Assembly: GCF_012863495.1 (NCBI RefSeq)
Contig: NZ_JAAVJL010000001.1
Coordinates: forward strand, 310,001 to 374,000
Reading direction: 5' to 3'
DNA from: Pseudanabaena yagii GIHE-NHR1
GTDB taxonomy: Bacteria; Cyanobacteriota; Cyanobacteriia; Pseudanabaenales; Pseudanabaenaceae
DNA length: 64,000 bases
Of the stretch, positions 8,471-47,269 are shown one piece after another. Positions within the stretch are counted from its first letter, which is position 1; each line of letters starts with the position of its first letter. The notes beneath the pieces are model-generated. The model was given only the letters and a program-made list of their open reading frames with translations. It did no database searches and was not told where the DNA came from. The position numbers were made by a program, and so were the translations under genes.

Positions 8471-9359
8471 AGAAACGGATACAGGTAAGAGCGATCGCTA
8501 CTTCATCAGCGCATTGCTGAATTGCAGTAACATCGCCAGAGCTAATAGCATTTGGAGATAACCATCTCATCGAAAATATGCCTAAAACTTCTTCCCGAAA
8601 AGTAATTGCGATCGCGATGTTAGTTTTATATTGTTGATCAGGATCGTCTACATTCAAGCAAATTTGTGACTGTCCTGTGGCGATTGCTGTCTGTACTAGA
8701 GGATCGGTTGCTAAATCCCAATAGGAATTGCCACATATTGCTTGAGTATCAATTAGAGCGCTATGCTCAACTAACTGCAAAATCACTGCATCTGCACCAA
8801 AATTTTGCCAAAAGGCACTCGCAAAGGGCAGTACACAATTCGATAGTTGGTGAGAACTTTGAGTGATTTCTATAATTACTGACAACAAAGCATTCTGAGC
8901 TTGCGATCGGCTCAACTCCTCAGAACGTTGCTTCAGCAGATCGTAATTTTGGGTTGCCTCTACCACTACTGACTTCAGTTGGTCTGGCTCCCAAGGCTTA
9001 GTAATATATTTATGAACTTGTCCTGAATTGATGGCATCAATCAAATCTGTAATATCGGTATAACCAGTCAGTACGATTCTCATGGTGTCAGGAAAATCTG
9101 ACACAGTCCGCCGCAGAAATTCTGTCCCCTTCATTTCAGGCATCCGTTGATCAGAAATAATCGCCGCCATTTCTCCCTCTTTTGCAAGAATTTCAAGCGC
9201 CTTCAGACCACTATCTGCGCGAAACACCACAAATTCTCTACGAAAAGTGCGATATAGCAAATCAAGATTATCTTGCTCATCATCAACCACCAAAATCTTT
9301 GGTTTTGGGAGTGGATTAGCTTTATTTAGCTTATTAGCAGAAAACAAAGGTGAACTCAT
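8457..9359 (-). CDS. Response regulator with REC and GAF domains
   Basis: About 300 aa. The REC receiver domain spans residues ~20-140: acidic pocket VVDDEQDN, phospho-acceptor Asp in IISDQRMP, conserved Thr in VLTGYTD and Lys in ITKPW. A short coiled helix (LLKQRSEELSRSQAQN) leads into a GAF-like domain to the end (ILQLVEHSALIDTQ, GIFSMRWLSP). No DNA-binding or GGDEF output is present, so the GAF domain or a partner must carry the signal. ATG at 9359 is preferred over an upstream TTG. It overlaps the HD alarmone-hydrolase-like gene, so the two may act together. Confidence 0.85.
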   Translation of the reverse strand: MSSPLFSANKLNKANPLPKPKILVVDDEQDNLDLLYRTFRREFVVFRADSGLKALEILAKEGEMAAIISDQRMPEMKGTEFLRRTVSDFPDTMRIVLTGYTDITDLIDAINSGQVHKYITKPWEPDQLKSVVVEATQNYDLLKQRSEELSRSQAQNALLSVIIEITQSSHQLSNCVLPFASAFWQNFGADAVILQLVEHSALIDTQAICGNSYWDLATDPLVQTAIATGQSQICLNVDDPDQQYKTNIAIAITFREEVLGIFSMRWLSPNAISSGDVTAIQQCADEVAIALTCIRFYAKF

Positions 9360-9445
9360 GAGCAAAATCTAGTTAATACTGACTGCAAATATAGCAGTTT
9401 GTGGAAGATTGCCCCGAATAGTCCAGCACAAACCACTGAGAATGG

Positions 9446-9480
9446 ATTTATAGTACGTCGCAACGCGCTGTACTATAAAT
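9446..9480. repeat. 11-bp hairpin ATTTATAGTAC/GTACTATAAAT
   Basis: Inverted repeat around a GC-rich centre (GTCGCAACGCGCT) in the gap between the REC-GAF gene and fbaA. Confidence 0.65.
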
Positions 9481-9500
9481 CAAAGAAATTTTTGACTAAT

Positions 9501-9535
9501 AAAAAATAAGGGACGCAATGCGCCCCTTATTTTTT
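9501..9535. terminator. Terminator hairpin, apex CGC-AAT-GCG
   Basis: The stem AAAAAATAAGGG with an inner ACGC-AAT-GCGC has one mismatch. It lies 55 bp past the fbaA stop on the minus strand and is followed by T residues in both directions. Confidence 0.75.
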
Positions 9536-9589
9536 CTAACAATTAGACTGACTCAAGCTTGGCTCAGTAAATCTATATTTGTGTAATAA

Positions 9590-10669
9590 CTAAGCCTTAA
9601 CAGCTTGGCGGCTTACTTGCTTCAATTCGCCTGTAGCATACTTAGGAACGAAATCATAAATGCTAACTTGCTTGATCTTGCTAGCTTGACCAGCAGCTTC
9701 AAACTGAACATAGCGATCGGCACATACTTTTTGCATGTACTTGATCGATGGCTTCAAGAAATGACGAGGATCAAATTCCTTAGGATTCTTCGCCATAGCT
9801 TCACGCACCGCAGCAGTGATCGCAAGACGACAGTCAGTGTCAATATTAACCTTGCGTACACCACTCTTGATACCCTTTTGAATTTCTTCAACAGGTACAC
9901 CATAGGTTTCAGGAATTGCACCACCATACTCGTTGATCAATGCAAGTAGATCTTCAGGAACTGAAGAAGAACCATGCATGACGAGGTGAGTATTAGGTAG
10001 ACGGTTATGAATTTCTTCAATGCGGCTAATAGCCAAGATTTCGCCAGTAGGCTTGCGAGTGAACTTATAAGCACCGTGGCTAGTACCGATCGCTACAGCC
10101 AAAGCGTCAACTTGAGTACGCTCAACGAAGTCAGCAGCTTCATCAGGATCGGTCAAAAGTTGGGAATGATCTAAAGCACCTTCAAAACCATGTCCATCTT
10201 CTGCTTCGCCCTTACCAGTTTCAAGGGAACCTAAGCAACCTAATTCGCCTTCGACGCTTGCGCCAAATGCATGGGCAACTTTGACTACTTCTGAGGTAAC
10301 AGCTACGTTGTACTCATAGCTAGCAGGAGTCTTAGCATCAGCTTCCAAAGAGCCATCCATCATGACACTAGTAAAGCCATTTTGGATTGCTGAGTAGCAA
10401 GTCGAAGGGGCATTACCATGATCTTGGTGCATCACGATAGGGAGATGAGGATAAGTTTCGGTAGCAGCCAAAATCAAGTGACGTAGGAAATTTTCACCTG
10501 CGTAATTGCGCGCACCACGAGAAGCTTGTAGGATTACAGGGCTGTTGGTTTCATTAGCAGCCTGCATGATCGCTTGGATCTGCTCCATGTTGTTGACGTT
10601 AAATGCAGGGATGCCATATCCATTTTCAGCCGCATGATCGAGCAGCAGGCGCATTGGTACTAAAGCCAT
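9590..10669 (-). CDS. fbaA: Class II fructose-1,6-bisphosphate aldolase
   Basis: This 359-aa enzyme condenses dihydroxyacetone phosphate with glyceraldehyde 3-phosphate (and with erythrose 4-phosphate) in the Calvin cycle and glycolysis. The sequence starts [24 protein letters not shown]. It has zinc ligands in MHQDHGN (His ~81-86), EGELGCLGS around residue 142, the ligand in GTSHGAYKF, and [12 protein letters not shown], as in the Calvin-cycle subtype (CbbA/FbaA). Length is typical. It is monocistronic, with a terminator hairpin downstream and another long hairpin upstream. Confidence 0.96.
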
Positions 10670-10744
10670 ATATAAAATCTCTCCTAGACAAAATCGAGCT
10701 TATGCGATTATTAACAATCTTAAATCATTTTGAAGATTAAATAA

Positions 10745-10785
10745 ATCAAAAAAGGGGGCGTGCTTAGCACACCCCCTTTTTTGAT
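10745..10785. repeat. 19-bp hairpin, apex GTGC-TTA-GCAC
   Basis: Stem ATCAAAAAAGGGGGCGTGC with one G-U position and loop TTA, between fbaA and apcF. Both genes run on the minus strand, so it can terminate apcF. Confidence 0.85.
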
Positions 10786-10830
10786 CTAGCGATCGCTATA
10801 AGTAGTTGAGCATAATTAAAAACCAGAGTC

Positions 10831-10869
10831 AAAACCTACGGCGCACGCTGCGCGTGCGCCGTAGGTTTT
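10831..10869. repeat. Perfect 18-bp hairpin, apex ACGC-TGC-GCGT
   Basis: Stem AAAACCTACGGCGCACGC pairs perfectly around TGC. It is the first hairpin downstream of apcF. Confidence 0.85.
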
Positions 10870-10909
10870 TGGGTTTTATATTTAATTGCGCCGAGGTACT
10901 TAGAGAAAT

Positions 10910-11410
10910 CTATAGATTGTTTTCGCCCAATTCACTAGCCATATATTCAAAAGGTGCGCCGAGCCAATCAGCACTTTCACCTACTAAATCAAAAACTAGC
11001 TCCTTCAGAATTTGGATACCACGGACAGTAGGTCCAATGGCTACGCCTAGAGAGCTATAGGTATCACGCAAGCCCTGTAATACTCTTTCGTCGAGGACAT
11101 CATTGTTACCAGCGACTAGAGCATAGGAGGCATAACGTAGGTAATAGTCCAAATCACGTAAGCAAGCAGCAAAACGACGGGTGGTGTAAGCGTTGCCACC
11201 GGGACGGATCAGATCGGGAACTTCTTCAAATAACTGAGAGCCAGCTTTACGGACAATCGATGCAGCATTAGCGGTGATTGCTGCCGAAGCCGCTAGACGA
11301 GCGTTACCTGTAGCAAAGTAGGATTTGAGGGTATCCAAGGCATCGCGATCAAAATATTTACCAGTGGCATCGTAAGTACTGATCAGGCTAGTGATTGCAT
11401 CCTGTGGCAT
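10910..11410 (-). CDS. apcF: Allophycocyanin beta-18 subunit
   Basis: A 166-aa phycobilisome core protein. The globin-like phycobiliprotein fold is shown by MPQDAITSLISTYDATGKYFDRDAL, RPGGNAYTTRRFAACLRDL (the Cys in AACLRDLDYYLRY binds phycocyanobilin) and NVLDERVLQGLRDTYSSLGV-type sequence. QLFEEVPDLIRPGGNAYTTR and the C-terminal APFEYMASELGE favour beta-18 (ApcF), a terminal-emitter-trimer partner of ApcE, over the major ApcB. It sits alone rather than in an apcEABC cluster, as apcF usually does. Confidence 0.88.
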   Translation of the reverse strand: MPQDAITSLISTYDATGKYFDRDALDTLKSYFATGNARLAASAAITANAASIVRKAGSQLFEEVPDLIRPGGNAYTTRRFAACLRDLDYYLRYASYALVAGNNDVLDERVLQGLRDTYSSLGVAIGPTVRGIQILKELVFDLVGESADWLGAPFEYMASELGENNL

Positions 11411-11831
11411 ATAGTTTTCTCCGTTGATTTAGTTGTAATAAATGTATCTGTAAATGGATTTGTAAAGTTTGTAAACTATATATAACTTAAACTTAACAGC
11501 GCTTTGCGCTTGAATCCGAATCAAGAATTTTTTATAAAAACTTTCTTGCGGTTCATTTGAGCGGAAATTACTGCAATAACTTAATCCTTGGGACATCCTT
11601 GGGATAGTTACCGCAATTATTTTACTGTGGTTTCAGCGTCTCACCAAATCTTGGTTTACCAAACGCCACATTAAATAACATTACCAGAAAGTCGATTCGG
11701 GGCGAATTTGCTAAATCTATTGAGAAAATTTTCTCTAGGTAACGCACTGTAAGTAGCTGGTGCAATATTTTTTGTGGCGCGGCGAAGCCGCGCCACAAAA
11801 AATCGGTTCCTTATTTTCGTCTCCTAGCTAC
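11411..11831. other. apcF leader and promoter region, no gene seen
   Basis: About 420 bp upstream of apcF, rich in AT, with one hairpin (11767-11803). The promoter and leader of apcF must lie in the first part. No coding frame of usable length or tRNA was seen. Confidence 0.6.
11767..11803. repeat. Perfect 17-bp hairpin, apex GGC-GAA-GCC
   Basis: Stem ATTTTTTGTGGCGCGGC around GAA, followed by TCGGTTCCTTA. A related element at 41725-41777 has the same CGGTTCC flank on both sides. Confidence 0.85.
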
Positions 11832-11982
11832 TTAACGTCAGGTCGAGTTAAGCTTGCAAATTTTATAAGCCAGAAATCAAAAGCCTTGCTAAGCAAGGCT
11901 TTTGATTTCTGGCTTTGAGAGAGGGTTTGCGTAGCAAACCCTCTCTCAAAGCCAGTTTTAAATTATCTCGAACTCTCGTTAA
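11832..11982. repeat. TTAACG...CGTTAA two-hairpin element, copy A (151 bp)
   Basis: The element starts TTAACGTCAG and ends CTCTCGTTAA. Inside are two abutting hairpins with 3-nt loops: 22+3+22 nt (11868-11914, apex TTGC-TAA-GCAA) and 20+3+20 nt (11911-11953, apex TTGC-GTA-GCAA). Both stems pair perfectly and share four bases at the junction. Copy B (33862-34012) has the same total length and near-identical spacing; copy C is at 29277-29395. Confidence 0.85.
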
Positions 11983-12140
11983 TTTAGGGAGAATTACGAC
12001 GCAACGCTGTAGGAAATGTCGGAAAGATCTCACTGCGATGTAAGCTTAGATACTAAGCTAGATATAGATGGTTTTATTGAACCTTTTCGAGCAGTTTATA
12101 AGGAAATGTCTGGAAATGAAATTGATGTGGGGCTAGGTAT

Positions 12141-13349
12141 ATGAAGTGGGTTACTAGTCTTTCGACAAAAATATCGTTAGAAGCTGCGGTGCAAGATTTG
12201 TCTCAGCAAGTGCTGGCTGCACTCGGTGAGCAATCCCTTGATTTAGGTTTTTTATTTATATCTACGGCATTTTCCAGTGACTATCCACGCTTGCTACCTT
12301 TGCTTGCCGAAAAACTACCAATCAAAAAATTAGTTGGTTGCTCTGGTGGTGGGATCGTCGGCAATGGTCGTGAGTTTGAAGATAAGCCTGCGATCGCTCT
12401 TTTAGTCGGTCATTTGCCAAATACGGAAGCGAAAGTATTTCATCTCGATGATAGTGAGCTACCAGATCTTGATAGTTCTCCTGATCGATGGGAAAAACTG
12501 ACGGATGTTAGTCCCTCTCTTGCACCTAGCTTTGTATTAGTTGGTGATCCTTTTTCCTTCCCGATTAATGACCTGATTCAAGGTCTAGACTTTGCCTATC
12601 CAAATGCGGTTAAGGTTGGTGGATTGGCTAGTAGTGGTGGTATGGGAGCTAATGCCCTATTTTGTTTTCATGAAGAAAATCAATATAAGCTTTATCGCAC
12701 AGGTTTACTTGGTGTCGCACTATGGGGTGATGTAACCATTGATCCTGTGGTTGCTCAGGGTTGCCGTCCTATCGGTAAGATCATGCAGGTTTCGGAATGC
12801 GAGCGCAATTTGATTTTGGGACTAGAAGGTAAACCACCATTATCTTTATTGCAAGATACCGTTGGAGATTTGAGCCAAAGCGATCGCGAACTTGCTCAGC
12901 ATTCATTATTTATCGGTGTAGTAATGAATGAGTTTAAGGCAAATCCATCACAGGGAGATTTCTTAATTCGCAATATTATTGGTGTCGATCCACGCTCTGG
13001 AGCGATCGCTGTTGGCGATCGGATGCGTCCGGGGCAAAGAATTCAGTTGCATTTACGAGATGGCAAGGCATCGGCTGAAGATTTAGAGGAAGCTCTGATC
13101 AACTACATGAATCAGTTAAATCTAGAGGCTCCTAATGTAACCCCTACGGCAGCCCTGATGTTTTCCTGTATGGGACGTGGTGAGCGTCTCTATGGCAAAC
13201 CCAATTTTGATTCAGAGTTATTACAAAAGCACATTGGCTTAATTCCCTTTAGTGGCTTTTTCTGTTCTGGAGAAATTGGACCTGTTGGCGGTACAACTTT
13301 TTTGCATGGCTATACCTCAGTTTTTGGTATTGTCAGACCCAAAAGTTAA
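12141..13349 (+). CDS. FIST domain protein
   Basis: A 402-aa soluble protein with an N-terminal FIST domain (about 25-220: LDLGFLFISTAFSSDYPRLL, KKLVGCSGGGIVGNG) and a C-terminal FIST_C domain (about 225-385: ISVDPRS-like IIGVDPRSGAIAVGDRM, ALMFSCMGRGERLYG, GFFCSGEIGPVGG). FIST proteins are thought to bind small ligands, perhaps amino acids, and often accompany signalling proteins. None is adjacent here. ATG 12141 is preceded by an AGG-containing leader. Confidence 0.92.
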   Translation: MKWVTSLSTKISLEAAVQDLSQQVLAALGEQSLDLGFLFISTAFSSDYPRLLPLLAEKLPIKKLVGCSGGGIVGNGREFEDKPAIALLVGHLPNTEAKVFHLDDSELPDLDSSPDRWEKLTDVSPSLAPSFVLVGDPFSFPINDLIQGLDFAYPNAVKVGGLASSGGMGANALFCFHEENQYKLYRTGLLGVALWGDVTIDPVVAQGCRPIGKIMQVSECERNLILGLEGKPPLSLLQDTVGDLSQSDRELAQHSLFIGVVMNEFKANPSQGDFLIRNIIGVDPRSGAIAVGDRMRPGQRIQLHLRDGKASAEDLEEALINYMNQLNLEAPNVTPTAALMFSCMGRGERLYGKPNFDSELLQKHIGLIPFSGFFCSGEIGPVGGTTFLHGYTSVFGIVRPKS

Positions 13350-13380
13350 ACAAAAAGAGCGCAAAGCGCTCTTTTTGTTT
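13348..13380. terminator. Perfect 15-bp terminator, apex GCGC-AAA-GCGC
   Basis: Stem AAACAAAAAGAGCGC begins at the FIST gene stop codon, and its 3' arm ends in a T-rich run. Confidence 0.88.
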
Positions 13381-13457
13381 GCGATTAGTTACAAATACTC
13401 ATGGGCTGAGATTGCCATGCTACCGTATATGCAGTTTTAACAATGGATTTACTCATC

Positions 13458-13550
13458 TATAGCAATCCTAAATGATTTGTGGAAGCGCACCCCTTCGGGG
13501 TGCGCTTCCACAAACTCAAAAATCTACAAATGATTTAGGACTGCTCTATA
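13458..13550. mobile_element. MITE-like element, TATAGCAATCC family, copy A
   Basis: 93 bp with imperfect terminal inverted repeats TATAGCAATCCTAAAT and ATTTAGGACTGCTCTATA. The centre is an 18-bp perfect hairpin (TTTGTGGAAGCGCACCCC, loop TTC, 13476-13514). The same element in the opposite orientation lies at 41592-41682, and a shortened copy at 18282-18344. It has no coding capacity. Confidence 0.85.
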
Positions 13551-13592
13551 TATTTTGAGAACTCCTTGAGGGAATAGATAAGGATTAATTGA

Positions 13593-14003
13593 ATGTTCGA
13601 TTTGCATTGCTTAGGTAGTGTTGTGGGAGATTTTTCGCGATCGCATTGTGTAGCTATTTGTGCATTCCTCGTACCCGCTAACTTAATCGCCACCTCACAA
13701 ACAATTTTATTGACGATCTTGAATCGATCGCCTGTTGAGATTTTCACAATTAGCGCTAGTGCAATTATTTACGCATTACTCATGATTGCACATGTAATTA
13801 GTTGGTACATCATCGGCGTAGTGATGGCTCCCACGTTTATTTTGATGTTTTTAGGAATTACCTGTTTAGCAGTTAATCTCACCGCAATTTGGCTAAAAAT
13901 TAAGCAGATTGAAATTGATTATTTAGGGATTTTAGTCAAGTTCCTTCAGAGATTTATGCAGATTGAAAAATCATCTAACGTTGTCCTTAATTCATTACAG
14001 TAG
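13593..14003 (+). CDS. Hypothetical membrane protein
   Basis: A 136-aa protein with about three hydrophobic segments (residues ~20-45, ~50-75 and ~78-100) and a short charged C-terminus. No recognised family. It stands alone between two intergenic repeats. An inner-membrane location is inferred from hydrophobicity only, and the start codon is uncertain. Confidence 0.5.
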   Translation: MFDLHCLGSVVGDFSRSHCVAICAFLVPANLIATSQTILLTILNRSPVEIFTISASAIIYALLMIAHVISWYIIGVVMAPTFILMFLGITCLAVNLTAIWLKIKQIEIDYLGILVKFLQRFMQIEKSSNVVLNSLQ

Positions 14004-14047
14004 CTAGAAGAGTTAGCGGTAGTCCTAAAAAGGGAAGGATTTATTGT

Positions 14048-14086
14048 GGTAAGGATGGGCGGCGTTTCGCGCCGTCCATCCTTACC
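14048..14086. repeat. 17-bp hairpin with GGCG-TTTCG-CGCC centre
   Basis: Stem GGTAAGGATGGGCGGCG with one G-U position. A looser outer pair (TTAGCGGTAGT near 14009 and CACTACCGAAT near 14094) suggests a larger element. Confidence 0.75.
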
Positions 14087-14159
14087 TATTTAGCACTACC
14101 GAATTAGCATTGCTAATTCTATTTTGATTTTTGAATTGATATAATTCAGATTAAGCATT

Positions 14160-14835
14160 TTGGCGAAAATAACGACTGTCCTCAACGCTAGTACCTTGAC
14201 TTTAGATCAGGTTTATCATTACCTGAAATTTCAAAAACTATCCTATAACTCTTTTAAATCGTTACTTCAATTAGAACCATTGTCTGACTTTGAGATTACT
14301 AAACTTACTCAAATTCGGAATGATTTTTGAAAATTATTTGACAGATGGAAAAGTCTTAGAAGGCACGGTCAAGGCACTATCAATTTTGCCATTGTTAAGA
14401 TTAGCAGGCTTTTATCGTGCGCCGATCAAGATGCAAATGGAGCAGGAAATAGATCGGATTAATATTGAAGATGAGGATATAAGTATTACGGGGCGATTAG
14501 ATCTGATCTGTGTTAATAAAGATCGCCCCAAAATGAGTGATATTGCCTTTTGGGTTTTAGCGATCGAATCAAAGAATACGAGTATCAGCGCTTCGGAAGG
14601 ATTACCGCAACTATTGACCTATGCCTATAAAAGTTTAGAAAATCAAAAAACGGTATGGGGTTTAACCACCAATGGTGTGTATTACGAGTTTGTGTATATC
14701 CAACAAAGTGTTGATCAAGACTCCTACTCCACTTATCAGCCGTTACCATCGTTGCATTTAATGGAACCTGAGTCTTCTGAAAAACTATTGCAAGTCTTAA
14801 AAGCAATTTGCAAAGTTCAAAATGGTCTTCTTTAG
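14160..14835 (+). pseudogene. PD-(D/E)XK nuclease-like gene with a frameshift
   Basis: Two frames together give one protein. Frame 1, from TTG 14160, reads AKITTVLNASTLTLDQVYHY...LEPLSDFEITKLTQIRNDF and stops at TGA 14328-14330. The next frame, from ATG 14320, continues as FENYLTDGKVLEGTVKALSI to 14835. Removing one T from the run of five at 14324-14328 restores QIRNDFENYLTDGKV, matching the arrangement I recall for cyanobacterial restriction-endonuclease-like proteins. The core has DISITGRLDLICVN and VLAIESKN, the D...ExK pattern of PD-(D/E)XK nucleases. It may be inactivated, or expressed from the internal ATG or by slippage on the T-run. It converges on another nuclease-like gene 8 bp away. 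Confidence 0.75.
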
Positions 14836-14842
14836 AAAAAGT

Positions 14843-15439
14843 CTATGCAAATGGCAGCATTAAGATCCCAAGAATCTTATCAACATTACCGATAAAATAT
14901 TCAGGCTGGTCAATATAAACAATATTATCTTTTAGTATCAGAAAGCGCCATAAACTGCCTGTGGTAACTGCACCATAAATGCGATCGCATGGTTGCCCAT
15001 GACGTTGATTAAAGATTTGGGCAGCAAACATCTCTGCTATACATTGACCTAAACCACTACGAATACTTTCATTTTTGGCTTCAGCGATCGCAATTACAGG
15101 AGCCGTAATATCTATCTGTTCCGATGATTTGCTCAAAATAAAATCACAAAAGCCCTGCAATCCGAGCGATACATCAACATTAAACTCAGTTCCAGAAAAT
15201 AAGCTAACCGATGGTTGCAATTGCGCTCTCACTTCTCCTAAAACTGGCGCGATCAAAAATTCTGAGCGTACTTTCTCAGTATTGACTAAAGTTACAAAGG
15301 ATTCTGCACGTTTCAAAGTTTCGCGAAGATAATCAGATGGTGTTACTGGCTCAACTTCTGCAAATAAACTTTCACCTTCCTTGATCAATAAACCTAGGTC
15401 TTCTTTAACTCGCGCTAATGTAAAGTCACTGTAAGCCAT
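14843..15439 (-). CDS. PD-(D/E)XK nuclease-like hypothetical protein
   Basis: A 198-aa soluble protein. The core GFCDFILSKSS...PVIAIAEAKNESIRSGLGQC has a D followed by the strand-borne E-x-K (AEAKN), a likely PD-(D/E)XK catalytic site near residues 97-125. The N-terminal region (SDFTLARVKEDLGL) and C-terminal region (AAQIFNQRHGQPCDRIYGAVTTGSLWRFL) match a cyanobacterial hypothetical family. It converges tail to tail on the frameshifted nuclease-like gene. No methylase is adjacent, so a restriction role is not supported. Its GAVTTGSLWRFL resembles the neighbour's WGLTTNGVYYEF, so the two may be distant relatives. Confidence 0.65.
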   Translation of the reverse strand: MAYSDFTLARVKEDLGLLIKEGESLFAEVEPVTPSDYLRETLKRAESFVTLVNTEKVRSEFLIAPVLGEVRAQLQPSVSLFSGTEFNVDVSLGLQGFCDFILSKSSEQIDITAPVIAIAEAKNESIRSGLGQCIAEMFAAQIFNQRHGQPCDRIYGAVTTGSLWRFLILKDNIVYIDQPEYFIGNVDKILGILMLPFA

Positions 15440-15484
15440 GATGATAAGCCATGATGAATTGTCTTTTTCTTGATATAAAAAATT

Positions 15485-15514
15485 ATAGACAAGGAGATTA
15501 ATCTCCTTGTCTAT
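15485..15514. terminator. Perfect 30-bp palindrome without loop
   Basis: ATAGACAAGGAGATT is followed directly by its reverse complement, 35 bp past the dxs stop on the minus strand. It is the probable end of the dxs transcript. Confidence 0.75.
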
Positions 15515-15548
15515 ACAATCGAAGTCTGGCTAGACAAATTTTGTAGAC

Positions 15549-17471
15549 TTAACTAGCACTTGCCGCAGTTTGCTTATTAAAGGCAAACTGGTTGAGAATG
15601 CGATCGCAGATTTGACCGCTAGACATACCAAGAGAATTGAAAGACTGCTCTGGGGAAGCATGTTCAACGAGAATATCGGGAACCCCGATGCGGTAAACGG
15701 GAGCCAATACATTCGCATCATTCATCGCTTCTAAAACAGCACTACCAAATCCACCCATTAAGCAACCTTCTTCAAGGGTGACCACCTTACCGATTTTTTG
15801 AGCAAGGGGCAGGATTAGCTCGGTATCTAGGGGCTTCGCAAAGCGAGCATTCACAACTGTGGCGCTAACTCCATGCTCATTGAGAAGTTCCGCAACCTGT
15901 AGCGAAGGATAAACCATTGAGCCATAGGCAAGTAACAAGACATCCTTACCTTCGCGCAAAACTTCCGCTTTGCCGATTGGTAATGGCTCGATGTCCTCAT
16001 CCTGTAATGGTGCGCCTACGCCATTACCGCGAGGATAACGCATGGCGATCGCGCCATTGTGAGTTAAGCCCGTAACGATCATGCTTTGCATTTCGGCTTC
16101 GTCCTTGGGAGCCATCAGCACGATGTTAGGGATACAGCGCAGATAGGAAATGTCATACATTCCTTGGTGAGTAGGACCATCGGCTCCGACAATACCTGCG
16201 CGATCGAGACAAAAGAAAACGGGCAAATTCTGGATACAGACATCATGGATGATCTGATCGTAGGCGCGTTGGAGGAATGTGGAATAAATTGCAGCAACGG
16301 GGCGCATTCCTTCACAAGCCATCCCTGCGGCGACAGTAACAGCATGTTGTTCCGCAATGCCAACATCAATAAACTGATTGGGGAGAGCCGCTTGGAACTT
16401 GTCTAAACCTGTACCAGTGGACATGGCGGCGGTAATGGCAACGATACGCTTGTCATGCTCAGCAAGTTTAATCAGCGTATCCGCAAAAACCTTGGAGTAG
16501 CTAGGAGGTTTGGGCTTGCTAGAAGTTGATGGTTTTGCTTTACCTGTGGCGAGGTCAAAGGAGTTTTGAGCGTGGTATCCCACGCGATCGGCTTCAGCGT
16601 AGCTGTAACCCTTGCCCTTAGTGGTGCTAACGTGAACCATGACGGGACCTGTGAGCGTATGCGCCATCTTGAAGGTATCGATCAATTCCTTGAGATTGTG
16701 ACCATCGACGGGACCAATGTAAGTAAAGCCGAGTTCTTCAAATACGGCTCCCACTTTGTTTTGTACCATCGTCACAATCTTGAGATTGTCCTTAATGCGC
16801 TCAATCTCAGGACTGATTTGTTCGCCGACAAAGGGGATATTGCGGATCTGTCCCTCAAGGTTGTTGGTGATAAATTTCATCGGGGGGCTGAGGCGCATTT
16901 TATTCAAATACTTAGGAATTGCGCCCACGTTGGGAGAAATCGACATTTCATTGTCATTGAGGACAACTAATAAATTCGTTTTGGGAAGATGTCCTGCGTG
17001 GTTGATCGCTTCTAGCGCCATGCCACCTGTCAAGGAGCCATCACCGATGATCGCTACTGTTTTGTAATTATCGCCTTGTAAATCACGGGCGATCGCCATA
17101 CCCAAAGCCGCCGAAATACTAGTCGATGCGTGACCTGCCCCGAAATGGTCAAATTCACTTTCGCGACGGTTGAGGTAGCCTGCAATCCCATCCTTTTGAC
17201 GCAAGGTATGGAAATTTTTGTAGCGTCCTGTGATCAATTTATGGGGATAGGCTTGATGCCCCACATCCCACACCACCTTGTCGCGATCCAAGTCAAGGGT
17301 TTGGTATAGGGCGAGGGTTAGCTCGACTACGCCTAGCCCCGGACCGAGGTGTCCGCCTGTAGCCGCGATCGTTTCTAAATGTTTTTGCCGAATTTCCTTT
17401 GCGATTGACTCCAATTGCGAGATTGTTAAACCATGCAACTGGTTAGGGTGGGTAACTTCACTTAGCCGCAT
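15549..17471 (-). CDS. dxs: 1-Deoxy-D-xylulose-5-phosphate synthase
   Basis: This 640-aa thiamine-diphosphate enzyme joins pyruvate and glyceraldehyde 3-phosphate in the first step of the MEP isoprenoid pathway. Landmarks are [37 protein letters not shown], the ThDP/Mg site [18 protein letters not shown] (~150), YIGPVDGHN, the transketolase pyrimidine domain ([30 protein letters not shown]) and the C-terminal domain with [14 protein letters not shown]. Length and order are those of cyanobacterial Dxs. It is transcribed alone, with a palindrome downstream. Confidence 0.97.
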
Positions 17472-40045: not shown

Positions 40046-40090
40046 TATGGAGCTAAGGGAACTTGAATCCCTGCCCCCCTCAATTCCATT
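40046..40090. repeat. Direct repeat of tRNA-Ala 3' end (probable distal att site)
   Basis: 45 bp matching 41342-41386 with three mismatches. It covers the acceptor 3' strand, T-arm, variable loop and part of the anticodon arm of tRNA-Ala(GGC). This is the structure left by integration at a tRNA 3' end. Confidence 0.88.
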
Positions 40091-40217
40091 TAGTAATTGT
40101 TTGCAATCCTAATTTATGAAAATGCCTTAAAGCCATCACACAGTAAGCTTTATAGCTCTGTAATCATATAACCAATAAGTAGGCTAAATCAACTTTAGCA
40201 TAGGTATTAGGCTAAAT

Positions 40218-40775
40218 TTATCTCCTATCACGAATTAAATCTTCTGCTACCTTTTCCCATACCCATTGTTCACTTTTACCTTTATTTCGATTAGCTTCAC
40301 CATCAAATAGTCTAAGTGCTAGATCCCTATTCCCATTTACTAAACTAGACACCTGAATAGGTATATACGTTGGTGAAACTATATTTGTGCTTACAGTTAG
40401 CTCTAAATGTCTTTTTCCTAGATCTCTAGCCATTGATACATAATTACCCTCTTGCACCTCTACTTTTTCTTGCACAGATGCAAAAGGAGGAGGGTTAAAC
40501 GGTTTAGGCTTTACTGGACTAGGATTTAGATCTGTACCTGATTCAGGATTGTTATTGCTGTTATTGCTGCCTTTTCTCTGTAGCTGTATTCCGTAGCTAG
40601 CAGCTAGCTGTAGAGCCATTGCACTTAATAGCCTATCCCATTCAAATTTGTATCCCCTAATCCCTAAAGCTATTAACAGGACTACAGCACCTGACGCTAA
40701 TCCTAAAAGGATCGATAAAAGCAAAAGCCTAAAGCTAAAAGCCTTTTGCTTTGTCTTACCTCTATTTCTTTTCAC
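40218..40775 (-). CDS. Island membrane-anchored hypothetical protein
   Basis: 185 aa. A strongly basic start (MKRNRGKTKQKAFSF) is followed by a transmembrane segment (~17-39) and a possible second hydrophobic stretch. A low-complexity Asn/Pro linker (NNSNNNPESGTDLNPSPVKP) leads to a C-terminal soluble domain (ELTVSTNIVSPTYIPIQVSS, then GEANRNKGKSEQWVWEKVAE). No known family. It is last of the three island genes on its strand. Confidence 0.6.
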   Translation of the reverse strand: MKRNRGKTKQKAFSFRLLLLSILLGLASGAVVLLIALGIRGYKFEWDRLLSAMALQLAASYGIQLQRKGSNNSNNNPESGTDLNPSPVKPKPFNPPPFASVQEKVEVQEGNYVSMARDLGKRHLELTVSTNIVSPTYIPIQVSSLVNGNRDLALRLFDGEANRNKGKSEQWVWEKVAEDLIRDRR

Positions 40776-40877
40776 TTGATTATTTTTAAAAACTCACTTA
40801 ACTATCACTATATCTAGTTTTGTGCTGATTTATGTTTATCAATTATTTCTTTGATAAATGGTTCTAAAGAAATAGGG

Positions 40878-41051
40878 TCACAGATACCTACCAGTATCCT
40901 TATCGCGATTATTGCGTCTATAAGTCGTTTTAGGTGGACTAGGTATAAACCAGCATCTAACCTGTCTTCTTTGTTTAGGAGTCAGAACTAAGTACACGCT
41001 TATAGCTATTAGCAACAAGCTTACAAAAAATACGGTTAATCCAGTGATCAT
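40878..41051 (-). CDS. Island 57-aa single-pass membrane protein
   Basis: Short frame starting MITGLTVFFVSLLLIAISVY, a single hydrophobic helix, then a basic tail LTPKQRRQVRCWFIPSPPKT and YRRNNRDKDTGRYL. Its ATG overlaps the stop of the upstream 50-aa gene (ATGA), which is strong support for translation. Small membrane proteins of this form occur in phage-derived and satellite elements; its role is unknown. Confidence 0.55.
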   Translation of the reverse strand: MITGLTVFFVSLLLIAISVYLVLTPKQRRQVRCWFIPSPPKTTYRRNNRDKDTGRYL

Positions 41052-41200
41052 TTATCCAATCCCTTGCTAGTTCTGTAGCTATCAATAATTTCTTTTTCGG
41101 TAAGAGTCAGAAAGTATTTGTATTCTCTCTTTTCACCGTCAAGTGGTTTCATACCAGCGTTTTCACGCTTACCACCTCTAGTATTTACCTTTTCACTCAT
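41048..41200 (-). CDS. Island 50-aa basic protein with RGGKRENAG motif
   Basis: Reads MSEKVNTRGGKRENAGMKPL, then DGEKREYKYFLTLTEKEIID. The RGGKR-x-x-AG-x-KPL opening is common in small proteins of plasmids, phages and integrated elements, where it precedes a short DNA-binding helix; the role is unproven. Its stop overlaps the start of the membrane protein gene (ATGA). First gene of the island operon. Confidence 0.55.
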   Translation of the reverse strand: MSEKVNTRGGKRENAGMKPLDGEKREYKYFLTLTEKEIIDSYRTSKGLDK

Positions 41201-41343
41201 AATTAACTGAAAGTGAAATATAAGCAAATAGCTCCATTGTTGTTTTTGATAGTCATAATCTAGAGATAGTCGTATGGTTTAACAACTACTCACTGATTAA
41301 GGCTAATTAAGGGCTAATTGCTTTACTTAAAAGCTGCAACCTA

Positions 41344-41416
41344 TGGAGCTAAGGGAACTCGAATCCCTGACCCCCTCAATGCCATTGAGGTGCGCTACCA
41401 ACTGCGCTATAGCCCC
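41344..41416 (-). tRNA. tRNA-Ala(GGC)
   Basis: 73 nt. The acceptor GGGGCTA pairs with TAGCTCC, the D-stem is GCGC/GCGC, the anticodon stem CCTCA/TGAGG encloses ATGGCAT (GGC), and the T-arm is AGGGA-TTCGAGT-TCCCT. The discriminator is A and CCA is not encoded. It is the integration target of the small island on its 3' side. Confidence 0.95.
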
Positions 41417-41591: not shown

Positions 41592-41682
41592 TATAGCAGT
41601 CCTAAATCATTCGTAGATTTTTGGGTTTGTGGAAGCGCACCCCTTCGGGGTGCGCTTCCACAAACCATTTAGGATTGCTATA
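41592..41682. mobile_element. TATAGCAATCC MITE-like element, copy B (inverted)
   Basis: 91 bp, reverse orientation to copy A: TATAGCAGTCCTAAAT at the left and ATTTAGGATTGCTATA at the right. The 18-bp hairpin TTTGTGGAAGCGCACCCC is identical to that of copy A, and the flank CGTAGATTTTTGGG matches the A copy's CTCAAAAATCTAC when inverted. Confidence 0.88.
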
Positions 41683-41724
41683 TTGCCAAAATGATTGGCA
41701 TTGTTAAGGGACATACAGGAAAAT

Positions 41725-43909: not shown

Positions 43910-46900
43910 ATGTCTTTGTCTCTGGTGGCTTTGAAGATTTTTGCTCCTGCGATCGCTAAAACTCTATTAGAGTCGTTTCATATTGAAACTAAACTATTGA
44001 ATGCGGTATTGGAAGAGGTAATTGACAATACGAGTGAGGGTGTTTTGAGTTCTGTAGAGGCAAAGAAAGCTAATATCGATCAAATTGCGAAACAGCTTGC
44101 CAATGATATCAAGCCCTTATTTGAGCGAGAGGCTCAGAATTTACAGAGAGAGACTAAAAACGCCATTGTGATTTCGGTGGCAGAAACTTTGATTAAGGCG
44201 AGATTGTCGGCGGATACTTTGGCGGAGATGAATTTTGATGAGGAACGGCTTAAGGATTATTTGTTGGTGGTCTATCCAGAGGTATTAATAGGGTTTTCTG
44301 ATAATGCAAAGTCTTTGTATCGGCAGGTAGTTGATTTAGCGAGCAAAAGATTGATTGCTTCGGCTGCCCAGATGCAAGGCTTTGCTTTGAGTGCGGCGGC
44401 GGTGACTTTACAGAGACTTGATGAGGTGTTGAGGCAGTTGGCGATCGCTCGCGAATTGGCGAATCAGGCGGCGGATGCGTATGCGAAGAATTATCGGCGC
44501 AAGGTTCAGGAGAAATTGGATAAATTAGAGGTGTTTGGATTAGATAGAATCGATAGTCTATCTAGACAGCAAAGCCTGAGTATGGCTTATATCAATCTAT
44601 CGGCTAATTGTCCTCATGATGAGGATGAAGATGAAAAATCGCCTTTAATGCTGATGGGAGATGATCGCCTTGAGCATGAGTTAGGAAATCGGTCGAGAAG
44701 GGTTGATGAGGCTATTTATAATTGTCGGAGGTTGGTGATTCGTGGTAGTGCAGGGGCGGGGAAAAGTACGCTGTTACAATGGATTGCAGTACGGGCAGCA
44801 ACTCAGACTTTTCCTGAAAACTTGCATCATTGGAATTGTAAGATTCCTTTCTTTATTCGCTTACGGGACTTAGTAGATGAGAAAGTCTCTGTTTCAGGGG
44901 AGGTTGCTAAACTTGAATTTCCTACACCAGAGGAGTTTACTAAATTTATTGCTAAGAATTATGCTGATGAGATGCCTAAAAGCTGGGTGCATCAATATCT
45001 CAAACGCGGACAGGCTCTAGTTTTAATTGATGGTGTAGATGAGTTGCCCCGACTACAGAGACAAGATTTTTTTGAGGCTCTGAAGGATTTAGTCAGCGAT
45101 TTTGAGGAAGCTACTTTTATCGTTACATCCCGTCCTTCAGGATTAAAAAATATGCAGGGTGATGAATGGGAGGAATGGGAAGAGTGGGTTAGGTCGAATG
45201 GCTTCGCTACTTGGACATTGGAACCAATGAGCATCGCTAATATTGAGGAATTTGTGAAGCGGTGGCATGAGTCTTTGTCTCCTCATCGTGATGAAGATCT
45301 GACTCAACTCGCGACAAATTTAAAAACTCAGTTGCGCCAGCGTCCTGAATTGCGAAGACTGGCGGCGACTCCTTTGCTCTGTGCGATGATTTGCGCTTTA
45401 CATCGCGATCGCCAAGAAAATTTACCAAATGCAAGACTTGTACTTTATCGCGATTGTATTGATATGCTGCTCAATCGGCGTGATCGCGGTCGCAGAATCC
45501 CTTTGGATGATACCTATCCACTAGGATTAGATGAAGAGGAAAAAATTGAGTTGCTTCAGGGGCTTGCTTTGAAGTTAATGCGGCTAAATCTCTCGACTTT
45601 AGAAGCGGAGCGCGTGGATCGCCATTTTCAGGGTGAATTGAGTAAGACAAGGTTATCTAAAAATATTACAGGTAGGCAGATTCGTGATCTTTTTGTGGAT
45701 CGATCTGGTCTATTGCGGGAGCCATCGGTTAATCAAATTGATTTTGCCCATCGTACTTTTCAGGAATATTTAGCAGGGAAGGAGGCTCTAGCGGATGAAA
45801 GTTTAGAGGAACTATTGGGGCGTGCTACAGATGACCAATGGCGAGAGACGATTATTTTGACTGCGGGTTTAGCGCGTCCCAAGGAACGGGGGATGCTGTT
45901 AGATTCATTGATTAATCGCGGTAATAGCGAACCTGACAAACAGCAATATTTGCATTTATTAGCTGTTGCCTGTCTAGAAACCGCTACAACTGTTGATCCA
46001 GCAATACGCGAAAAGGTTTTAAGCTGTGCGAAAGCTATACTGCCTCCTAAAGATGATGATGAAGTCCCAATGTTTGCCGCGGTGGGTAATGAGATCATCC
46101 CGCTACTCAAATATGAATCTCATTATTCGGCTGAAGAAGCTTGTCGATGTATTAATGTTTTGGTTCAGATTGGTAATAGTGCTGCAATGTTAATGTTGGT
46201 GGACTATGCCAAAGCTCGATTTCAAGACGATTATGATAATTATTTGATAGGTCAAGAGATCAGTGAGGGATTTGATGTATTTGAGCAAAGCGCCTATATT
46301 TCTGAAGTGCTTACTCAGGTAAGTTTTTTGATGCTGAGCAATCCGCAAGTAACAGACTTATCTTTCTTGCGAGAATTGACTCAGCTAAATTTTTTGATGT
46401 TGAGCAACACACAAGTAACGGACGTATCTCCCTTGAGAGAATTGACTCAGCTAAATATTTTGATGTTGAGCAACACACAAGTAACGGACTTATCTCCCTT
46501 AAGAGATCTCACTCAGCTAAAAGACTTGTTGTTGGGCAACACGCAAGTAACGGACTTATCTTCCTTGAGTGTTATGACTCAGCTAAAAAGCTTGTATTTG
46601 AACCATATGCAAGTAACGGACTTATCTTCCTTGAGAGATCTCACTCAGCTAAATCGTTTGGATTTGAGCAACACGCAAGTAACGGACTTATCTCCCTTGA
46701 GAGATCTCACTCAGCTAAATCATTTGGATTTAAGAAATACGCAAGTAACGGACTTATCTTCCTTGAGTGTTATGACTCAGCTAAAAAGCTTGTATTTGAA
46801 CCATATGCAAGTAACGGACTTATCTTCCTTGAGAGATCTCACTCAGCTAAATCGTTTGGATTTGAGCAACACGCAAGTAACGGACTTATCTCCCTTGAGA

Positions 46901-47269
46901 GATCTCACTCAGCTAAATCATTTGGATTTAAGAAATACGCAAGTAACGGACTTATCTCCCTTGAGTGTTCTCACTCAGCTAAATCGTTTGGATTTGAGCT
47001 ACACGCAAGTAACGGACTTATCTCCCTTAAGTGTTCTCACTCAGCTAAATCGTTTGGATTTGAGCTACACGCAAGTAACGGACTTATCTCCCTTGAGTGT
47101 TCTCACTCAGCTAAAAGAATTGTATTTGAGCTACACGCAAATAACTGAGGTTCTACCTCTAAAAAATTTAACTAACCTTACAATTTACACGGGTAGTCGG
47201 GAAAAAATAGATCTTTGGAAATCTCAGGGTTTAAAAGTAGAAGACGATTATAGCGATATACCATTTTGA
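43910..47269 (+). CDS. NACHT-LRR STAND NTPase (bacterial NLR-like)
   Basis: 1119 aa. The N-terminal ~260 residues are helical with no recognised effector domain. A NACHT NTPase follows: Walker A VIRGSAGAGKSTLLQWIA (~275-292), Walker B ALVLIDGVDELPRL (~368-381), and a sensor region FIVTSRPSGL with a winged-helix/helical part to about 770 (FAHRTFQEYLAGKEAL). The C-terminal ~290 residues are leucine-rich repeats of 22 aa with consensus NTQVTDLSPLRDLTQLNRLDLS. STAND proteins of this layout are sensors that oligomerise on ligand binding; several bacterial NACHT proteins block phages. The LRRs carry a recent exact tandem duplication. A toxin-antitoxin pair follows. Confidence 0.93.
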   Translation: MSLSLVALKIFAPAIAKTLLESFHIETKLLNAVLEEVIDNTSEGVLSSVEAKKANIDQIAKQLANDIKPLFEREAQNLQRETKNAIVISVAETLIKARLSADTLAEMNFDEERLKDYLLVVYPEVLIGFSDNAKSLYRQVVDLASKRLIASAAQMQGFALSAAAVTLQRLDEVLRQLAIARELANQAADAYAKNYRRKVQEKLDKLEVFGLDRIDSLSRQQSLSMAYINLSANCPHDEDEDEKSPLMLMGDDRLEHELGNRSRRVDEAIYNCRRLVIRGSAGAGKSTLLQWIAVRAATQTFPENLHHWNCKIPFFIRLRDLVDEKVSVSGEVAKLEFPTPEEFTKFIAKNYADEMPKSWVHQYLKRGQALVLIDGVDELPRLQRQDFFEALKDLVSDFEEATFIVTSRPSGLKNMQGDEWEEWEEWVRSNGFATWTLEPMSIANIEEFVKRWHESLSPHRDEDLTQLATNLKTQLRQRPELRRLAATPLLCAMICALHRDRQENLPNARLVLYRDCIDMLLNRRDRGRRIPLDDTYPLGLDEEEKIELLQGLALKLMRLNLSTLEAERVDRHFQGELSKTRLSKNITGRQIRDLFVDRSGLLREPSVNQIDFAHRTFQEYLAGKEALADESLEELLGRATDDQWRETIILTAGLARPKERGMLLDSLINRGNSEPDKQQYLHLLAVACLETATTVDPAIREKVLSCAKAILPPKDDDEVPMFAAVGNEIIPLLKYESHYSAEEACRCINVLVQIGNSAAMLMLVDYAKARFQDDYDNYLIGQEISEGFDVFEQSAYISEVLTQVSFLMLSNPQVTDLSFLRELTQLNFLMLSNTQVTDVSPLRELTQLNILMLSNTQVTDLSPLRDLTQLKDLLLGNTQVTDLSSLSVMTQLKSLYLNHMQVTDLSSLRDLTQLNRLDLSNTQVTDLSPLRDLTQLNHLDLRNTQVTDLSSLSVMTQLKSLYLNHMQVTDLSSLRDLTQLNRLDLSNTQVTDLSPLRDLTQLNHLDLRNTQVTDLSPLSVLTQLNRLDLSYTQVTDLSPLSVLTQLNRLDLSYTQVTDLSPLSVLTQLKELYLSYTQITEVLPLKNLTNLTIYTGSREKIDLWKSQGLKVEDDYSDIPF
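46543..46938 (+). repeat. Perfect 198-bp tandem duplication in the LRR coding region
   Basis: Bases 46543-46740 and 46741-46938 appear identical and encode three 22-aa LRRs each. The next two 66-bp units (46939-47004, 47005-47070) differ by one base. The lack of silent differences points to very recent slippage or unequal recombination. Confidence 0.88.

Follow-up and report, generated by a model that had tools for sequence, protein, structure and literature searches.

A 1.3-kb island is inserted, with exact boundaries, in the 3′ half of the tRNA-Ala(GGC) gene of Pseudanabaena yagii GIHE-NHR1. We consider it reasonably probable that this island is a deletion relic, resembling a CIME, of a virus-like family that integrates into tRNA genes, and that it has perhaps been kept for immunity.

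The insertion at tRNA-Ala(GGC)

The window, that is the whole 64-kb stretch of DNA analysed, is G000:C1:310001-374000 of the 5.57-Mb P. yagii genome (G000; nine contigs), and positions given below without a contig refer to it. The target gene, tRNA-Ala(GGC), lies on the minus strand at 41344..41416, and its 3′ half forms one att copy. The distal att (40048..40090, minus strand) is a copy of tRNA positions 31-73, and the inserted unit, consisting of one att copy and the interior, occupies 1,296 bp (40048..41343). The tRNA 3′ copy can be aligned over 48 nt at 92%, or over 43 nt with three mismatches (40/43 bp); a preliminary description of this DNA had reported such a copy 1.3 kb away with three mismatches, in agreement with the spacing of 1,296 bp.

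Downstream sequence of up to 5 kb was scored for tRNA copies in the same genome, where 52 tRNA matches yielded 45 distinct ARAGORN tRNAs with enough sequence downstream. The score of tRNA-Ala(GGC) was 34 and that of the runner-up, where the match fell within an adjacent tRNA of a cluster, was 18; three further tRNA-like places, added later, scored 9-12. With 34 against 18 among 45 tRNAs, the tRNA-Ala 3′ copy is therefore beyond chance. Across 121 tRNA sites of loci from several genomes the island reached 36 on that scan's own scale, followed by a second mini-island (16.5, described below) and a 23-nt match (15.5).

Empty tRNA-Ala sites, proposed earlier as a check, were found in relatives. In a DNA search the left-flank gene and the tRNA block lay no more than 201 bp apart, with no island, in at least 20 of the 25 other genus genomes (G002, G004, G005, G006, G008, G009, G010, G012 to G023 and G025); G001, G003, G007, G011 and G024 stand outside this count, the two pieces not occurring together among the matches listed. 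The tRNA-Ala(GGC) gene is identical (73/73) in G002, G013, G021, G023 and G025. Its 3′ end in G002, G023 and G025 joins directly the sequence that follows the distal copy of the island in P. yagii, giving empty sites at base level, and in G021 and G013 it continues into other sequence toward the left-flank gene. A 40-base tRNA pattern, with up to three mismatches allowed, matched in six of 26 genomes, twice in P. yagii and once in each of the other five; this test for a second copy covers only those six, the remaining 20 giving no match at all. Because the neighbouring sequences occur without the island in relatives, and the tRNA joins the distal-flank sequence in three of them, the 1.3-kb stretch is a true insertion at the tRNA 3′ half with exact boundaries. 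The outcomes named in advance as contrary, a repeat in all relatives or core genes, did not occur: relatives have the tRNA without the genes (at least 20 of 25) and without the repeat (the five relatives among the six genomes of that test). Among the matches listed, the island was present at tRNA-Ala in one of 26 genus genomes.

Between the distal copy and the tRNA, 3 of 43 positions are mismatched, and the adjoining 117 bp of left flank that could be aligned differ from island-less G021 by 0.9%. Should the distal copy be the displaced original, its decay has outpaced that of its surroundings; should the element have brought the mismatches with it, the crossover must have occurred near the tRNA 3′ end. 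Simple decay fits these values poorly, which counts against the deletion-relic reading.

The composition analysis suggested earlier gave a GC content of 35.3% for the island versus 42.6% for the whole window. No HIP1 site occurs between 39838 and 41488, as had been supposed for the interior. With 103 HIP1 sites in 64 kb the chance of an empty 1.3 kb is about 0.12 (Poisson estimate), and the absence is therefore only mildly unusual.

Several other features were observed in the neighbourhood. A hairpin repeat at 41592-41683 (arms 41624-41666) has many near-identical copies in the same and related genomes. An ORF of 1119 aa at 43910-47269, 2.5 kb from the island, contains a P-loop and leucine-rich-like repeats, is NACHT-like by eye, and is possibly a defence gene. 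Upstream of the window, a degenerate integrase gene with stops lies downstream of tRNA-Met (G000:C1:292000-310000, at about 12112-12340).

Island genes and repeated sites

Three minus-strand genes with the sizes and ATGA overlap previously described were present. They encode a 50-aa RGGKRENAG protein that appears regulator-like (41048..41200, ATG at 41200), a 57-aa small membrane protein whose gene overlaps the first (40878..41051), and a 185-aa membrane protein with a GTG start (40218..40775). Between the last two lies a start-less minus-strand frame, RILVGICDPISLEPFIKEIIDKHKSAQN (40817..40900), which ends in DPISLEPFIKEIIDKHKSAQN before its stop codon. In the 185-aa protein, a membrane part at the N-terminus is combined with a domain of about 43 aa at the C-terminus (C-domain), which ends in WEKV..DL.RDRR. 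The C-domain was modelled as helices with good confidence, and the rest of the model was poor (mean pLDDT 66.6).

None of the three island proteins had a significant match in Pfam or PHROGs, and no family library searched covers the C-domain. NCBIfam, searched with the 185-aa protein and its relatives but not with the 50- and 57-aa proteins, returned TrbI for the 185-aa protein (E 0.045, far under cut-off), rejected as membrane-segment noise; membrane-family matches of the relatives were discarded on the same ground. PADLOC found no match for seven proteins, and Foldseek against the PDB, run with a 185-aa model of which only the C-domain is good, found none at E ≤ 0.001. By tblastn the 185-aa protein had no match in the phage collection and one 41-aa match among plasmids, on a plasmid of Synechococcus elongatus PCC 11801. 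The island was also said to contain no integrase, and this stands: its ORFs had no family match, and tblastn revealed no significant integrase similarity, nor was there any significant structural-gene similarity.

Candidate iterons lie near both ends of the island, two TAGGCTAAAT sites at 40180..40217 near the distal end and two GGCTAATT sites at 41299..41319 near the tRNA end, the motif in both cases having been chosen after looking. The consensus GGCTAAWT occurs four times, as a pair near each end, and none of 1000 Markov shuffles reached four, for a motif picked by eye after looking. An unbiased count of island 8-mers was unremarkable, the top 8-mer occurring four times and 71 of 500 shuffles reaching four or more.

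Related elements and a second mini-island

A complete element of 13.2 kb was found in tRNA-Pro of Pseudanabaena sp. ULC187bin1 (G011:C10 71219-84448). The target is tRNA-Pro(GGG) (71195-71268), and the distal att (84449-84498) is a perfect 50/50-bp copy of tRNA positions 25-74. A tyrosine integrase (PF00589, 5.8e-15) is encoded just inside, together with a Rha regulator (4e-17) and the genes p917, p446, p267, p119 and p127, which have no clear families; no relaxase or coupling protein was seen among the 10 element proteins scanned. HIP1 occurs once in 13,180 bp of the element versus 100 times in 53,261 bp of flank, and the GC contents are 37.4% and 43.3% respectively.

The final genes before the distal att encode a 54-aa regulator-like protein and a 189-aa membrane protein; the regulator fragment and the 185-aa gene of the island are ordered and oriented alike. 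The start-less frame is 53% identical to the 54-aa protein over 19 aa (E 7e-6 in a small search set, the match covering 17-19 aa), and the 185-aa protein is 29% identical to the 189-aa protein over 99 aa (E 5e-7, also in a small search set). The intact 50-aa protein shows 24% identity to the 54-aa protein. The start-less frame thus appears to be the remnant of a further regulator-like gene. The 54-aa sequence may resemble ribbon-helix-helix proteins; among PDB sequences, neither of the 54-aa proteins of G011 and G004 had a match at E ≤ 1.

A related element occupies the same tRNA, tRNA-Pro, in G004 (contig C389). Its integrase and 54-aa protein are 66% and 78% identical to those of the ULC187bin1 element, it has a Rha-like gene by eye, and its contig stops ahead of any distal att. 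Repeated sites are strong in both elements, GTAATAAA occurring 14 times in G011 and TAACTTAA 17 times in G004, and they are element-specific, of TTTAAGTTAAA type in G004 and CTTTGTAATAAAG type in G011. Many element-specific repeats are as expected if a repressor acts on many operators. The tRNA-Pro elements appear virus-like, and we know of no name for them. A literature search, with most subscription papers outside it, returned no description of the island or of the element family.

Homologies of this kind bear on whether the island is simply random DNA caught up in a partial duplication of the tRNA. The absence of known domains and the short, AT-rich ORFs would suit such an accident, in which the ORFs would be functionless. 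However, the 185-aa protein has homologues in other genomes (46% identity to the G011:C55 protein), the fragment is homologous to the 54-aa proteins, the boundaries in the tRNA are exact and a related complete element exists; we give this explanation very little credence.

Parts of the ULC187bin1 gene set recur in G017:C11, G015:C74 and G008:C1 (p446 only in the last), and p127 was found in 30 of 291 class genomes; no p127-type element was found in P. yagii. The 127-aa and 267-aa proteins had no match in the phage collection, scans of IMG/VR with three alignments found no relative, and a scan of genome contigs found five loci, that of ULC187bin1 among them. In Nostocales cyanobacterium HT-58-2 a relative of p267 is carried by two circular plasmids, pHT582-2 (15.6 kb) and pHT582-1 (37 kb), so genes related to p267 exist on free circles. 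By HMM, neither plasmid contains the C-domain or p127; both also carry partition genes and an integrase.

Across the class, 171 of 291 genomes contain the C-domain, and within the genus 25 of 26 do. By frame length, 24 of the 42 genus matches are proteins of about 445 aa and 18 are others. Three of these 18 immediately follow a tRNA and share its strand, namely the island, a tRNA-Val cassette in P. yagii (G000:C3) and a tRNA-Thr cassette in ULC187bin1 (G011:C55); no tRNA was found in stretches of 4 to 20 kb round the remaining 15. The ~445-aa protein adjoins tRNA-Thr(GGT) in several genus genomes (L062, L063, L065, L066; G000:C1:2681862-2682105). The C-domain as a mobile-element marker in itself was rejected, given its presence in 171 of 291 class genomes, C-domain proteins of about 100 aa beside ordinary genes, and the ~445-aa proteins ending in the domain in most genus genomes. 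It is absent from the tRNA-Pro elements of G011 and G004, including the 189-aa protein.

The C-domain often adjoins the structural-like gene module of integrated elements. A C-domain ORF was found in the same stretch at 11 of 29 scanned p127 places (11/23 and 0/6, two of the 11 being weak at E 4e-5 and 8e-5), a rate biased upward because some of the first 23 were fetched with the co-occurrence already visible; the floor is 11 of the 40 p127 places listed. In larger elements of G017 (L170 3690-4505), G008 (L177 5378-6214) and G015 (L171 5472-6975) an HTH gene has a C-domain membrane protein encoded downstream of it, in G015 with another gene between the two. The G017 element also has a D5-type primase-helicase.

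A stretch comparable to the island was found at tRNA-Val of G009. A 35-nt copy of the tRNA 3′ end, at 80%, lies at a spacing of 1,022 bp, and the stretch contains a C-domain tail (E 2.3e-5 within that stretch), ORFs of 81 and 109 aa, and an integrase scrap of 25 aa, which is 60% identical and scores 32.7 bits where the highest of 300 block shuffles reached 25.0. We read it as an att-flanked mini-island that would have lost its integrase by deletion. Only this stretch and the tRNA-Ala island were counted as att-flanked mini-islands; the tRNA-Val (G000:C3) and tRNA-Thr (G011:C55) cassettes, which have no detectable distal att, were rejected as their equals. The P. yagii tRNA-Val cassette is absent in G002, G021, G023 and G025, and the neighbourhood of the tRNA-Thr cassette varies between genomes.

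The 81-aa gene of G009 is 67% identical to an 84-aa gene at tRNA-Val in P. yagii, with dN 0.25 and dS 1.34 by NG86 (0.30 and 0.78 by YN00). These values, and ORFs open both in the island and at tRNA-Val, favour a domesticated immunity or defence locus, a cassette that would serve the host and be kept by selection, its mobility now irrelevant. Such a role, which overlaps with the deletion-relic explanation, strikes us as distinctly improbable: the site is occupied in one of 26 genus genomes among the matches listed, PADLOC gave no match, and the selection could predate the stripping.

Other tRNA-associated sequences were also observed. A MITE-like repeat of about 160 bp with many genus copies (L010 3556-3718) lies at the distal end of the P. 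yagii tRNA-Val cassette. An element of about 7.5 kb uses the 5′ half of tRNA-Gly(GCC), with a perfect 44-bp copy of tRNA positions 1-44, and encloses a 384-aa integrase and further genes (G000:C1:940000-958000, 9171-16826). In G002 and G021, integrases of a similar kind, 388 aa long, lie 5′ of tRNA-Val (L185 3544-4710, minus strand; L186 3878-5044, plus strand), with no long tRNA copy in the stretch examined.

Origin of the island and comparison with known systems

The deletion-relic reading supposes the following course. A virus-like Pseudanabaena element entered the 3′ half of tRNA-Ala(GGC); the insertion itself is observed, and a tyrosine integrase would have carried it out. The integrase and the structural genes would then have been lost by deletion, leaving the end that encodes the regulator and membrane protein, presumably as two cassettes in a row, of which the second would retain just a fragment of its regulator. 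As the element's repressor, the tiny protein would bind the iteron-like sites; the membrane proteins would confer immunity to related elements or exclude them, and such a function would account for the open state of the ORFs. Renewed movement would be possible only with an integrase supplied by a related element.

Several observations count against this course. The tRNA-Ala island contains no significant trace of an integrase or structural gene, its three main ORFs are open, and the identity between its 50-aa protein and the 54-aa one is just 24%. The G011 and G004 tRNA-Pro elements lack the C-domain, which is common in cyanobacteria at large, P. yagii has no p127-type element, and the tRNA-Val and tRNA-Thr cassettes have no detectable distal att. 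The immunity role in particular found no support from PADLOC, which returned nothing for seven proteins.

The preliminary description had proposed either a satellite that borrows an integrase or a remnant. The remnant is now favoured, because of the integrase scrap in the G009 sister island and the regulator-gene fragment in the tRNA-Ala island. The satellite is weakened but still stands, because the latter has no integrase debris and its ORFs are open. As a living satellite the island would comprise att sites, iterons, a small repressor and membrane proteins, and would depend for integration and excision on a related element, whose integrase would act in trans; its compactness, att copies still 93% alike and candidate iterons at both ends would agree with this. 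On the other hand, neither a second copy nor a p127-type element was found in P. yagii, the site is without the island in at least 20 of 25 relatives, a regulator fragment lies inside, and the comparable G009 island points to integrase loss by deletion. We therefore think a living satellite unlikely, though worth keeping in view. Somewhat less likely again is a still mobile 1.3-kb immunity island that would protect against certain elements and use the integrase of those same elements to enter tRNA genes. Such a unit would combine operator sites with a tiny repressor and with membrane proteins for exclusion, within a cyanobacterial virus-like integrative family that had no match in the phage-collection and IMG/VR searches.

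The complete 13.2-kb element, the G009 mini-island with its integrase scrap and the tRNA-Ala mini-island, which has none, may represent stages of erosion. The 1.3-kb insertion is easily overlooked, and it is linked to a tRNA-integrating, virus-like cyanobacterial family without a match in the phage resources searched. Since the surviving part is the regulator and membrane-protein end, the immunity hypothesis can be tested. Such relics escape the usual length cut-offs, and a search for tRNA 3′ copies within about 1.5 kb combined with very short ORFs is suggested as a route to them.

CIMEs (cis-mobilizable elements) derive by definition from ICEs or IMEs, and the classical type with cargo measures 1.2-13 kb (PMC7563491, PMC5704250). 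Compared with that account, the island is similar in having att at each end and cargo but no recombination or transfer genes, a state that deletion from a larger integrative element would explain. Both att conditions are present, with tRNA-copy repeats at the two ends and a specific integration site, and the content of three short ORFs and a fragment, none with a family match, includes no integrase, relaxase or transfer genes. It differs from CIMEs in that its apparent parent is a small, Rha-encoding, virus-like element rather than an ICE or IME, and in that no tandem parent lies at its site; we class it as no more than CIME-like.

Known phage satellites generally encode an integrase and replication or packaging functions, and the island differs from them in showing none of these. 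It is similar to them as a small integrated element in which genes that interfere with a helper are conceivable. The group includes PICI, PICMI and tycheposons (PMC11389934).

The G011 and G004 elements share with the island insertion in a tRNA 3′ half. The att of the G011 element (tRNA 25-74) and that of the island (31-73) both run from the anticodon region to the 3′ end, a feature not seen in G004, where the contig stops short of it, and the G011 element also has a comparable distal cassette of regulator-like and membrane-protein genes, and low HIP1 and GC. The island differs from both elements in sitting in tRNA-Ala, in carrying the C-domain and in having no integrase, Rha or structural-like genes. 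Because the last three are absent it is not a complete member, and is at most a relic or satellite of elements of this type. The link through the 185-aa protein and its C-domain, the complete tRNA-Pro element of ULC187bin1 and the sister mini-island of G009 are new.
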